The notes under the pieces: generated by a model
Seen by the model: only the letters and a program-made list of their open reading frames with translations
Database searches by the model: none
Told to the model about the DNA's origin: nothing
Assembly (NCBI GenBank): GCA_016214955.1
Contig: JACRMN010000012.1
Coordinates: 1-64,000, forward strand
DNA from: Deltaproteobacteria bacterium
Lineage (GTDB): Bacteria; Myxococcota; Myxococcia; Myxococcales; Anaeromyxobacteraceae
Direction of reading: 5' to 3'
DNA length: 64,000 bases
Position numbers and translations under genes: made by a program
Part shown: piece after piece, positions 2,373-40,875 of the stretch
Layout of the letters: each line of letters opens with the position of its first letter
Numbering within the stretch: the first letter of the stretch is position 1

Positions 2373-3305
2373 GTGCGACGCTCCCTGACACTGCCGCCCG
2401 ACGCCGGCGGCCGCCTCGATCGCGCCCTGGCCGACGCCCTGGGCGTGGGGCGTGCGGCGGTGAAGGAGGCCTTCGCCGCCGGACGGGTGCGGGTGGACGG
2501 GCGGCGCGCCCGCGGCAGCGACCCGGCGGCGCCCGGCGCGGCGGTGGAGATCGAGCTCGCCGGGCCGGCCGGCGCCCCGGCGCCCGAGCCGGGCACCCCG
2601 CTCTCGGTGCTGCGCCTCTCGCCCCGCTGGCTGGTGGTGGACAAGCCGCCCGGGGTCGCCACCCATCCGCTGCGGTCGGGCGAGGCCGGCGCGCTGGCCG
2701 CGGCGGTGCTGGGACGCCACCCCGAGTGCGCCGGTGCCTCGGACGACCCGCGCGAGGGCGGGGCCGTGCACCGGCTCGATCGCGACACCAGCGGCTGCGT
2801 GCTCTTCGCCCGGGACCCCGAGGCCTGGCGCATCCTGCGCGGGCAGTTCGCCGCCCGCACCGTCGAGAAGGTCTACCAGGCGGTGGTGCTGGGGCGGCTC
2901 GACGCCGGCGGGGTCTGCTCGGTGCCGCTGGCGCAGCGGGGCAACCGCTCGGTGCCGGTGCCCGACGCCGGGGCGGAGGAGCGGCTGCGGGAGAAGGGGC
3001 TGCCGGCGCCGCGGCCCGCCGAGACGCACTACGAGGTGGTGCGCCGGCTCGCGGCCCACACGCTGGTGGAGGTGCGGATCGTCACCGGGGCCATGCACCA
3101 GATCCGCGCCCACCTGGCCTGGCTCGGCTACCCGGTGGCCGGCGACCTGCTCTACGGCGGCGAGTGGGCGCGGCTCACCGGCCTGGAGCGCCACGCCCTC
3201 CACGCCTCCCGGCTCGGCTTCGACCCGCCAGAAGGCGGCGAGCGGGTGCGGGTGGAGAGCCCGCTCCCGCCCGACCTGGCCGCGCTCCTGGCGCGGCTGT
3301 CGTAG
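2373..3305 (+). CDS. RluA-family 23S rRNA pseudouridine synthase
   Basis: 310 residues from a GTG four bases after the previous stop. An N-terminal S4 RNA-binding domain (about residues 8-60) precedes the RluA catalytic domain. The catalytic motif HRLDRDTSG is clear, with Asp136 as the nucleophile, and the later RTVEKVYQA and MHQIRAHLAWLGYPVAGD blocks are typical. The enzyme isomerises specific uridines in 23S rRNA to pseudouridine; whether it is RluC- or RluD-type cannot be told here. It may be cotranscribed with the metallopeptidase-like gene. Its TAG abuts the stop of the convergent CAP gene with no spacer. Confidence 0.93.
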   Translation: MRRSLTLPPDAGGRLDRALADALGVGRAAVKEAFAAGRVRVDGRRARGSDPAAPGAAVEIELAGPAGAPAPEPGTPLSVLRLSPRWLVVDKPPGVATHPLRSGEAGALAAAVLGRHPECAGASDDPREGGAVHRLDRDTSGCVLFARDPEAWRILRGQFAARTVEKVYQAVVLGRLDAGGVCSVPLAQRGNRSVPVPDAGAEERLREKGLPAPRPAETHYEVVRRLAAHTLVEVRIVTGAMHQIRAHLAWLGYPVAGDLLYGGEWARLTGLERHALHASRLGFDPPEGGERVRVESPLPPDLAALLARLS

Positions 3306-5000
3306 CTACTTCTTCTTGCCCTTCCGGGGAGCCGCCGGCGCGTCCTCCTTGCCGGCGCTCCGCTCCTGGCCCACCGCGATCACCGCGTAGACCGCGTTGC
3401 GCCCCAGCTTCTCGTTCATGCCCAGGGCCACGCCAACGCCGAACAGCTTGCCGGGAGCCGTGACCTCCGGCTCCTCGGCGAAGTCGAGGGGCTCGGGCCG
3501 GGCGCCGAAGGTGAGGCTCACCGCCTTGAAGCGCTTGTCGAGGGTCTTGGTGAGCTCTGCCTGGCGTGCCTTGGGCAGGTTGCCGGCTGCCGCGGCCAGC
3601 TCCCTGGCGAAGGTCTGGGCGAACTCGTCGAGCCCGGTGTCCTGGGCCGCGGGCGGATAGCGCCCGTCCTTGCGCTTCTGGACGACGGCGACACGGAGCT
3701 TCTCGGCGGTGGCGACGGGATCGAGGGGAGGGAGCTCCTTGATGAAGACCTGGTCCACGAAGACCACCGCCCTGCCCTCGGGCCCCTTGCCGCCGACGAT
3801 CCCGATGCCGACGTTGGTGACGGACGGGTCCATGAACGAGGCCCGGTGGCCCGGGCTCTCCGAGAGCTGCTCCATGACCTCGCGGGCGCCCGAGCCCAGG
3901 GCCGGGCTCTGCAGGATGACCTGCGAGGAGATGCCCTCGCGCTTCAGGCGGGCCACGAGGTCCGCGGGGACCTCGAAGGCGCCGCGCTCCGAGGAGGTCT
4001 TGAGGGACGCCGCCACTCCGCGCGCCACGCCGGCGAGGGCATCGTCCCAGGCGAGCGGCCGGTGGCCGACCGCGGTCCGCTCGGCGTTGATGAACTCGGC
4101 CATCCGGCGGGCCTGGGCGGACTCGTCGCCGCTCCAGTCGGCGGGCCGGGCCATCGCCACCGAGTCGTCGAGCGGCCGGCCGCAGGCGATGGGGAACTGG
4201 GTCACCACCATCGGCGACCCGCCCAGCTCGGCCCGGATCTCCACCCGGATGGTGCCGGGCCTGTCGCCACAGGCCACCTGCGCCTCGAACCGGGAGCCGC
4301 TGCCCTCGGCAACCGTCAGCTTGCCGGGCACGTCGGCCACGAGGACCTTGGGCTTCTCCAGGTCCCCGAGCAGCTTGCCGGCGATGCGCCCCGCCTGGCC
4401 AGCGGCGAGCTGGCGCGGTGCCTCCAGCTCCACGGGTGACTGGTCGAGGGTGGCGATGACCACCTTGAAGGTGCCGCGGCGAACGCGATTCAGCAGCAGG
4501 CCGTAGCGCGGCAGCTTGGCGCCCCTGGCCAGGGCGGTGATCGGCTCGACCAGCTTCTCGGCGATCTCCTTGGGCTCCTCGCGGTTGTCGGTGGTGACCT
4601 GCAGGGTCACGACGCGGGCGAAGGAGCCGAGGAGCCCGAAGTGCTGGGTCACCCAGGCGGCGAGGGGCGCCGGGGGGCCGTCCTTGCCTTCCCAGGACAG
4701 GAAGGACTCGGCGACGGCGCAGAGCCGGTCGTCGGCCTGGGGCATCGGCCCGCCGCCCCCGCGGAAGGCGACGGCCAGCTCCTCCGCCAGGTACAGCGGC
4801 GCTCCGCGGGCCGGGCACACGTAGGGCGACTCGCCGCCGAAGGCGGCGACCGCCGGGCGTCCCGGAGCGTAGCGCCCGTCGGCCAGGGTTCCGGACTTGC
4901 GGTCGGCCCGCGTCAGATCGACGGGCGCCGCCCAGGTGCCGGCCGCTGGCAGCAGGGCGGCGGCGAGCGTGGCGAAGAGGAAGAGCCGAGCGACCCTCAT
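3306..5000 (-). CDS. Secreted CAP-domain (SCP/PR-1) protein
   Basis: 564 residues. The start at 5000 is chosen because GGAGG sits 8 bases upstream and the next residues form a signal peptide (MRVARLFLFATLAAALLPAA) with an Ala-x-Ala-like cleavage site; an upstream in-frame codon at 5030 lacks both. A CAP domain lies in the middle (MAEFINAERTAVGHRPLAWD, then SPGHRASFMDPSVTNVGIGIV), with the characteristic NxxR and HR...NVGIG blocks. The flanking regions of about 290 and 130 residues are unassigned. It follows the second exbD by 58 bases and may be the last gene of the tonB operon. Role outside the cytoplasm unknown. Confidence 0.85.
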   Translation of the reverse strand: MRVARLFLFATLAAALLPAAGTWAAPVDLTRADRKSGTLADGRYAPGRPAVAAFGGESPYVCPARGAPLYLAEELAVAFRGGGGPMPQADDRLCAVAESFLSWEGKDGPPAPLAAWVTQHFGLLGSFARVVTLQVTTDNREEPKEIAEKLVEPITALARGAKLPRYGLLLNRVRRGTFKVVIATLDQSPVELEAPRQLAAGQAGRIAGKLLGDLEKPKVLVADVPGKLTVAEGSGSRFEAQVACGDRPGTIRVEIRAELGGSPMVVTQFPIACGRPLDDSVAMARPADWSGDESAQARRMAEFINAERTAVGHRPLAWDDALAGVARGVAASLKTSSERGAFEVPADLVARLKREGISSQVILQSPALGSGAREVMEQLSESPGHRASFMDPSVTNVGIGIVGGKGPEGRAVVFVDQVFIKELPPLDPVATAEKLRVAVVQKRKDGRYPPAAQDTGLDEFAQTFARELAAAAGNLPKARQAELTKTLDKRFKAVSLTFGARPEPLDFAEEPEVTAPGKLFGVGVALGMNEKLGRNAVYAVIAVGQERSAGKEDAPAAPRKGKKK

Positions 5001-12842: not shown

Positions 12843-13029
12843 GGTCGGTCTCCGGTTCTGTCCTCCACCCGCCGAGGCAACCAGCGCCTTTCTCCCTCCG
12901 GATGCGTGGGAGGTACCTTCCTCCGCACGTCCGCGGGCACCGGGGCGCCGCTCGCAGGTGTGTGATTTGTGAAGCCCCTCGCTCCTCGCGAGGCCCTCTC
13001 CGGCGGGGCGCGCCCGGGAAGGGGACAGG

Positions 13030-13058
13030 CATCTAGCACAGGTCGCCCGCTCCCGCAA
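13030..13058 (-). promoter_or_regulatory. Candidate sigma70 promoter for rpsB-tsf
   Basis: Minus strand: TTGCGG (13053-13058), 17-base spacer, TAGATG (13030-13035), with TGTGC directly before the -10 giving an extended -10 look. Located in the rpsB/peroxiredoxin divergent region; nothing else in 12843-13160 looks genic. Confidence 0.5.
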
Positions 13059-13087
13059 GCAGAACCGAGATCCAAGCGCCCGGAATC

Positions 13088-13093
13088 TATGAT
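13088..13093 (+). promoter_or_regulatory. -10-like element for the peroxiredoxin gene
   Basis: TATGAT matches 5 of 6 consensus -10 bases, 67 bases before the ATG at 13161. No good -35 is visible at 16-18 bases, so an activator-dependent or other promoter is possible. Confidence 0.35.
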
Positions 13094-13160
13094 GCTTCCC
13101 GGGGCCCCGGCCGTTAGGCAGAGGGATCGCCGCGGCCCGGGGGCCGCGAGGAGGCCTGGC

Positions 13161-13616
13161 ATGGGACTCGAGGTGGGAAAGAAGGCGCCCGACTTCGCCC
13201 TTCCCGACGAGGAGGGGAAGACGGTGCGGCTCAAGGACTTCCTGGGGCGGAGGGTGGTGGTCTTCTTCTACCCCAAGGCCGCCACCAGCGGCTGAACGCA
13301 GGAGGCCTGCGACTTCCGTGACGAAGTCGCCGCGTTCACGAGGAAGAGGGTGGCCGTGATCGGCATCTCCAGGGACCTGCCCGCCGCCCAGAAGAAGTGG
13401 AAGGAGAAGCACGGGCTGCCCTTCCCGCTCCTCTCCGACGCCGACACCCAGGTGCAGCAGGCATGGGGGGTCTGGCAGGAGAAGAACATGTACGGGAAGA
13501 AGGTCATGGGCACGGTGCGCACCACGGTGCTCGTCGGCGCCGACGGGAAGGTGGAGAAGGTCTTCCCCAAGGTGAAGGTCGACGGCCACGTGCAGAACGT
13601 CCTGGAGCTGCTCTAG
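13161..13616 (+). CDS. Selenocysteine-containing peroxiredoxin (Bcp/PrxQ family)
   Basis: 151 residues if the in-frame TGA at 13293-13295 is read as selenocysteine (Sec45). A GAGGAGG Shine-Dalgarno lies 6 bases before the ATG. The sequence around the [11 protein letters not shown]-Sec-TQEAC, aligns exactly with the PxxxTxxC motif of Bcp/PrxQ enzymes: the Sec replaces the peroxidatic Cys, Cys50 sits at the resolving position five residues later, and Arg120 (VRTT) is the conserved active-site Arg. Sequence on both sides is intact. These enzymes reduce peroxides using thioredoxin. A strong hairpin follows the TGA at SECIS distance. No selAB genes are in the window. Alternative: a pseudogene with a nonsense mutation, which I consider unlikely. 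Confidence 0.88.
13293..13330 (+). promoter_or_regulatory. TGA selenocysteine codon plus bacterial SECIS-like hairpin
   Basis: TGA at 13293-13295. GCGACTTC (13309-13316) pairs perfectly with GAAGTCGC (13323-13330) around the six-base loop CGTGAC. The loop begins 21 bases after the TGA and has G as its second base. Bacterial SECIS elements are expected with an apical loop roughly 16-37 bases past UGA and a G near the loop start, so the geometry fits SelB recruitment. Confidence 0.75.
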
Positions 13617-39753: not shown

Positions 39754-40875
39754 CTACACCGGGCTGCCGAGGATGGCGGCCAGCGTCTCCCGCAGGTAGG
39801 CGGCGGCGGTGCGCAGCGTGGGCGCCGCGCCCTCGGGCCCGCGCCCCAGCGCCGGCGCCACCTCCACCAGGTCGGCGCCGACGAGCGGCATGCCCCCGAG
39901 CTCGCGCCCGGCACGCCGGATGAGCTCCAGCACGAAGCCGGGGAGGAGGCCGCCCGGCTCGGGCGTGCCGCAGGCATCGGCGAAGGCCACGTCCGTGCCG
40001 TCGATGTCGTTGGAGAGGTAGAGGGCCCGGGCGCCGCACTGCCGCAGCGCCGCCAGGATCTGCTCCTGGGCGCGCCCCGGATCGCGCAGCACATCCTCGG
40101 CCCAGAGCTGCCGCACCCCGGTGCGCCCCTCCCAGTGGCCCCGGTCGTGGCGGGTGGCGCGGATGCCCACCTGCACCGTGCGGCCGCCACGCCCCACCAG
40201 CTCGTTGGCGTGGAAGGCCCAGGTGGCGAAGCAGTGCCGGACGCCGAGCCGCTCCTCCAGCAGGTCGGTGTGGGCGTCGAGGTGGAGGATGGCCAGGTCG
40301 GGGTGGTGGGCCGCCAGCACCTTCACCACCGGCCAGGCCACCGAGTGGTCGCCGCCCAGCACCACCGGCACCGCGCCCGGCGCCTGGGCCAGCAGGAGGG
40401 AGAGGGCCCGCTCGGCGGCGGAGAGCGGCGAGACCGGCAGCGCCGCCCGCTCGGCTTCGGGCAGGGAGGGATAGAGGCTGCGGCGGGTGGCCGCGAGCTG
40501 GCCGGCCGAGAGCATCTCGTCCTCGAGGAGCTGGGGCACCACGAACACGTCGCCGACGTCCACGATGCCCCTGGCGGCGGCGCGCCGGAAGAACTCCGGA
40601 TCCTCCTCGACCAGCTGGTTGCGGATGCCCTGGGGCCCCTCGCTCGCGCCCCGGCGGTAGCCGGCGCCCACGTCGGAGGGGATGCCCAGGAGCAGCACCC
40701 GGGCGGAGGCCGCCTCCTGGAGCGCCTGCCGCCAGCGGGCGGAGACCTCGTTCTCGCCGCGCGCGCCGTAGATCCGCTCCTGCACCGCGAGCTGCTCCGC
40801 CTTGCCGGTGGAGACCACGTACAGGCCGCCGGCGGCGGGGCGCAGCAGCAGCTCGAGCTCGGCGATGAGACGCAT
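39754..40875 (-). CDS. Arginase/agmatinase-family ureohydrolase
   Basis: 373 residues. A short N-terminal extension, then the ureohydrolase domain (about 60-370): VVLGGDHSVAWP, LAILHLDAHTDLLEE, and the metal-binding SNDIDGTDVAFA, giving His and Asp ligands for a Mn2 cluster. The family hydrolyses guanidino groups (arginine, agmatine, guanidinobutyrate, formiminoglutamate); the substrate cannot be told from the sequence. A cell-envelope signal is absent. Convergent with the tandem membrane proteins. Confidence 0.85.
   Translation of the reverse strand: MRLIAELELLLRPAAGGLYVVSTGKAEQLAVQERIYGARGENEVSARWRQALQEAASARVLLLGIPSDVGAGYRRGASEGPQGIRNQLVEEDPEFFRRAAARGIVDVGDVFVVPQLLEDEMLSAGQLAATRRSLYPSLPEAERAALPVSPLSAAERALSLLLAQAPGAVPVVLGGDHSVAWPVVKVLAAHHPDLAILHLDAHTDLLEERLGVRHCFATWAFHANELVGRGGRTVQVGIRATRHDRGHWEGRTGVRQLWAEDVLRDPGRAQEQILAALRQCGARALYLSNDIDGTDVAFADACGTPEPGGLLPGFVLELIRRAGRELGGMPLVGADLVEVAPALGRGPEGAAPTLRTAAAYLRETLAAILGSPV

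Follow-up and report, generated by a model that had tools for sequence, protein, structure and literature searches.

Ordinary gene calling cuts one locus of the window, the 64,000-nucleotide stretch of DNA from a member of the Anaeromyxobacteraceae that we analysed, into two pieces, 12969-13295 and 13350-13616. Are these the remains of a broken gene, two separately translated frames, or a single gene whose internal TGA codon is read as selenocysteine (Sec)? The initial annotation favoured the last reading and warned that standard pipelines would hide such a gene, as they indeed do. Translated with TGA as Sec, the forward strand from 13161 to 13616 forms one prxQ/bcp reading frame of 151 residues, with an ATG at 13161, a TAG stop at 13614-13616 and a single internal TGA, codon 45, exactly where that annotation had placed it (13293-13295, forward strand). 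The sequence GAGGAGG at 13148-13154 of the same strand, 6 nt 5' of the ATG, is a likely ribosome-binding site; a promoter scan found no sigma-70 site. The frame almost certainly belongs to a selenoprotein gene encoding a predicted thioredoxin-dependent peroxidase of the Bcp/PrxQ type, in which Sec45 would be the peroxidatic residue.

The assignment to the peroxiredoxins is supported by several lines of comparison. The protein matches the Pfam family AhpC-TSA (1.7e-41) and scores 158 bits against the cut-off of 140 in the NCBIfam model PRK09437 (thioredoxin-dependent thiol peroxidase). The active-site motif PxxxTxxC/U, reported as intact by the initial annotation, reads P38-K-A-A-T42-S-G-U45 and is accompanied by the conserved Arg120 (13518-13520, forward strand), which we take to be the active-site arginine expected of peroxiredoxins. 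Across 30 aligned sequences P10, T42, G44, residue 45, T46, A49 and R120 are invariant. The putative resolving cysteine, Cys50, is encoded by a TGC at 13308-13310 of the same strand and stands at the CP-x4-CR spacing. In the AlphaFold model of the protein (pLDDT 95.5), a single helix formed by residues 43-61 carries both Sec45 and Cys50, and the best matches of this model among solved structures, found with Foldseek, are Bcp/PrxQ entries, with TM scores up to 0.97. The protein thus shares fold, length and cysteine spacing with the E. coli-type Bcp/PrxQ enzymes covered by PRK09437, but has Sec where these have the peroxidatic Cys. A Sec in this position is also found in PrxU of Eubacterium acidaminophilum, a biochemically studied Sec peroxiredoxin (PMC13188914, citing Sohling 2001). 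The window protein nevertheless lies outside the PrxU subfamily, since it reaches only 58.8 bits in NF040737 (peroxi_PrxU), where the cut-off is 270. These comparisons support a Bcp/PrxQ-type peroxidase with Sec as its probable peroxidatic residue.

Two fragments from standard gene calling are also what a dead or misread gene would give, if a TGC had become TGA by mutation or by sequencing error. However, a survey of 147 genomes of the class found TGA at codon 45 in 22 of them, the window's own included: 19 belong to the same family and three to another family of the same order. The 21 relatives, 58-85% identical in protein sequence, span several genera and include single-contig genomes, so a sequencing error does not account for the codon. 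Anaeromyxobacter species are the named close relatives. The compared genes appear to be true orthologs, because their neighbourhood, with rpsB upstream on the other strand and rsmB and fpg downstream, is kept in most of the family. On either side of the TGA dN is lower than dS (for L026, dN 0.13 and dS 0.23 before it, dN 0.08 and dS 0.35 after it) and no further stop occurs; this agrees with the conservation noted initially and, as purifying selection with no second lesion 3' of the TGA, it speaks against a decaying gene. We therefore give practically no credence to a pseudogene or misread base. At the TGA position the residue is Cys in three close orthologs, where the codon is TGC, and in nearly all wider relatives; in all, the Sec codon aligns with the Cys of these three orthologs and of 67 further homologs, which is the alignment that the initial annotation had proposed as a check. 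One genome of the family (G016, 100% complete) yielded no close prxQ ortholog, its best match having an E value of 3e-23, and carries selA. A plasmid collection held relatives of the gene only below 60% identity.

The TGA is followed, after 21 nt, by the perfect 8-bp hairpin described in the initial annotation (13309-13330, forward strand). Eight Watson-Crick pairs join 13309-13316 with 13323-13330 around the loop CGUGAC (13317-13322), and the 5' end of the stem lies within the Cys50 codon. The 48 nt from 13293 to 13340 fold at -20.9 kcal/mol (z -2.5). The published model of bacterial SECIS elements specifies a loop of 3-9 nt, a stem of 4-16 bp, a spacing of 16-37 nt, a minimum free energy of -7.5 kcal/mol or lower and, at loop position 1 or 2, a G after which G or U often comes next (PMC13188914). 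With a loop of 6, a stem of 8, G at loop position 2, a spacing of 21 and the energy given above, the window hairpin fits this model throughout, and all 22 Sec orthologs follow the loop rule (G, then G or U). An Rfam scan of the gene gave no SECIS match, only chance matches far under the gathering scores; we do not count this against the element, because the variability of bacterial SECIS elements is more than a single family could cover.

Chance hairpins are not very rare in this GC-rich window. Among its 832 TGA triplets, 13 (about 1.6%) are followed by a stem of at least 8 pairs whose loop has G as its first or second base, and a single one shows the exact geometry of the prxQ hairpin. A lone hairpin is therefore weak evidence, and it is the conservation of the TGA together with that of synonymous bases across the 22 genomes that is decisive. 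Because of this chance rate we examined nucleotide constraint at the level of codons. The Arg53 codon supplies loop bases 1-3; in the Sec orthologs it is CGT in 14, CGG in 8 and CGC in none of 22, while the 113 Arg codons elsewhere in the same genes include no CGT and 42 CGC. Glu55 is GAA in 12 of 22 against 4 of 163 elsewhere, and Val56 is GTC in all 22 against 155 of 383. The Fisher tests on these codons ignore kinship, and the same pattern is seen in 13 representatives below 85% DNA identity. The codon choices at Arg53, Glu55 and Val56 are those that the loop rule and the pairing of the stem would call for, and at the sequence level the hairpin is under a constraint beyond what the protein explains. 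The stem shows almost no covariation, which is uninformative here, since six of the eight pairs never vary. The claim that the hairpin is a bacterial SECIS element is thus borne out by its fit to the model and by the constraint on its synonymous sites.

This constraint also bears on the possibility that UGA is a true stop, leaving a 44-residue peptide and a downstream part translated separately from GTG 13350. An open reading frame from that GTG does exist mechanically, but its product would be without the first strands, the active site and the greater part of the long helix. The stretch separating the TGA from the GTG, residues 46-62, is conserved, a stop would explain neither the Cys in the same column of the relatives nor the SECIS-specific constraint on the hairpin, and we regard termination at this codon as hardly conceivable.

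The open frame alone could equally be accounted for by general suppression or a changed code, with UGA read as an ordinary amino acid. The genome of the window (5.3 Mb, 96% complete) nevertheless encodes the complete Sec machinery that the initial annotation had asked to be searched for: selA (C12:63381, 513.7 bits, cut-off 268), selB (C12:52126, 286.6 bits, or 309.6 when its second piece is added, cut-off 242), selD (C22:121009, 390.8 bits) and a tRNA-Sec (C21:43796, 74.9 bits) with the anticodon TCA, confirmed by ARAGORN. Three Sec peroxiredoxins are found in this genome, the window gene, L015 and L016, and the TGA of each falls on the catalytic Cys column. With the tRNA-Sec(UCA) present and Cys as the alternative residue at the TGA position, decoding as an ordinary amino acid is very unlikely.

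L015 (G000:C10, about 39927-40226, minus strand) has the motif FTPGU (FFPKAFTPGU) and no Cys five residues past the Sec (USKHTAAF), and L016 (G000:C11, about 2929-3330, minus strand) encodes 166 residues with the motif FTPTU (FYPAAFTPTU). The selD gene (L009, G000:C22:121009-121932) also encodes a selenoprotein, its own in-frame TGA lying in LTTLSHGAGUACKI. A scan of the window for other TGA read-through gave four candidates resembling ordinary gene ends; the filter was crude and missed prxQ itself.

For the selenoprotein reading we propose that SelB and Sec-tRNA(UCA) would bind the hairpin just 3' of the UGA and insert Sec at residue 45. The Sec45 selenolate, held by Thr42 and Arg120, would attack the peroxide; Cys50, which sits on the same helix, would resolve the resulting selenenic acid to a selenylsulfide, whose reduction may then fall to thioredoxin or a comparable donor. 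Peroxide reduction is expected to be faster with Sec. Cys50, found intact as first described, is kept in 15 of the 22 Sec orthologs, the window protein included, and in all three Cys orthologs. It is replaced by Ser in five Sec orthologs and by Leu in two, and these seven proteins contain no cysteine at all. This suggests that a resolving Cys may be dispensable alongside Sec, as in a one-Sec mechanism. We treat the loss of Cys50 as a lead and not as a result, because independent losses are few and Cys-form relatives without Cys50 occur elsewhere (L087, L099, L101, L114).

The three orthologs with TGC at codon 45 (L033, L041, L042) all belong to genus g5 of the window's family, and their genomes still carry selA, selB and tRNA-Sec. 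In a tree of 95 sequences they are nested in the Sec clade; the 25-row clade has a support of 99/93, and the inner forks around the three Cys rows 94/90, 88/90 and 86/79. As these rows fall inside the Sec clade, a return from Sec to Cys in g5 would be the simpler reading, although not a firmly supported one. L033 and L042 have CGC for Arg53 and GTG for Val56, so that neither the loop rule nor the stem is preserved in them; L041 retains the stem. Taken as a whole, a scenario in which the Cys-free Sec orthologs are one-Sec peroxidases reduced by an external thiol or selenol, while one genus reverted to Cys, selection on its hairpin relaxed and the Sec machinery was kept, is tentative, and we give it somewhat less than even credence.

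The hidden selenoprotein of the initial annotation is almost certainly real; its novelty is low, since Sec Bcp-type peroxiredoxins (TxxU) are a known family. In a 2022 review, peroxiredoxin (Prx; COG1225 (Bcp), motif TxxU) is listed as a prokaryotic selenoprotein family with more than a prediction behind it (PMC9312934), and 43 Sec peroxiredoxins of the COG1225 (Bcp) type were described from the Sargasso Sea (PMC1088965). The window protein shares family, motif and peroxidatic Sec with these, and its gene the hairpin past the UGA with a G in the loop; we see no essential difference beyond a new sequence from another genome. A 2006 paper attributed three Sec peroxiredoxins to Anaeromyxobacter dehalogenans (PMC1794560), and Anaeromyxobacter appears in an alignment of Sec Prx families in a 2007 paper (PMC1914089). 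The peroxiredoxins of A. dehalogenans are close relatives, judged by gene content as well as sequence, and the genome of the window likewise has three of the Sec type; some Anaeromyxobacter orthologs lack Cys50, whereas the window protein has it. The gene is thus a new sequence of an already known kind of selenoprotein and no new class. Its interest lies in confirming a selenoprotein that ordinary gene calling cuts in two, and in the natural series that one bacterial family offers, Sec alongside Cys50, Sec in a Cys-free protein and Cys alongside Cys50, which could serve to test the catalytic reason for selenium and the decay of SECIS elements after a return to Cys.

Three PrxQ relatives from Acidobacteria (L109, L115, L129) also have TGA at codon 45, without Cys50, and form a separate group mixed with Cys forms. 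They carry a possible hairpin with a loop of about 15 nt, beyond the published SECIS model.
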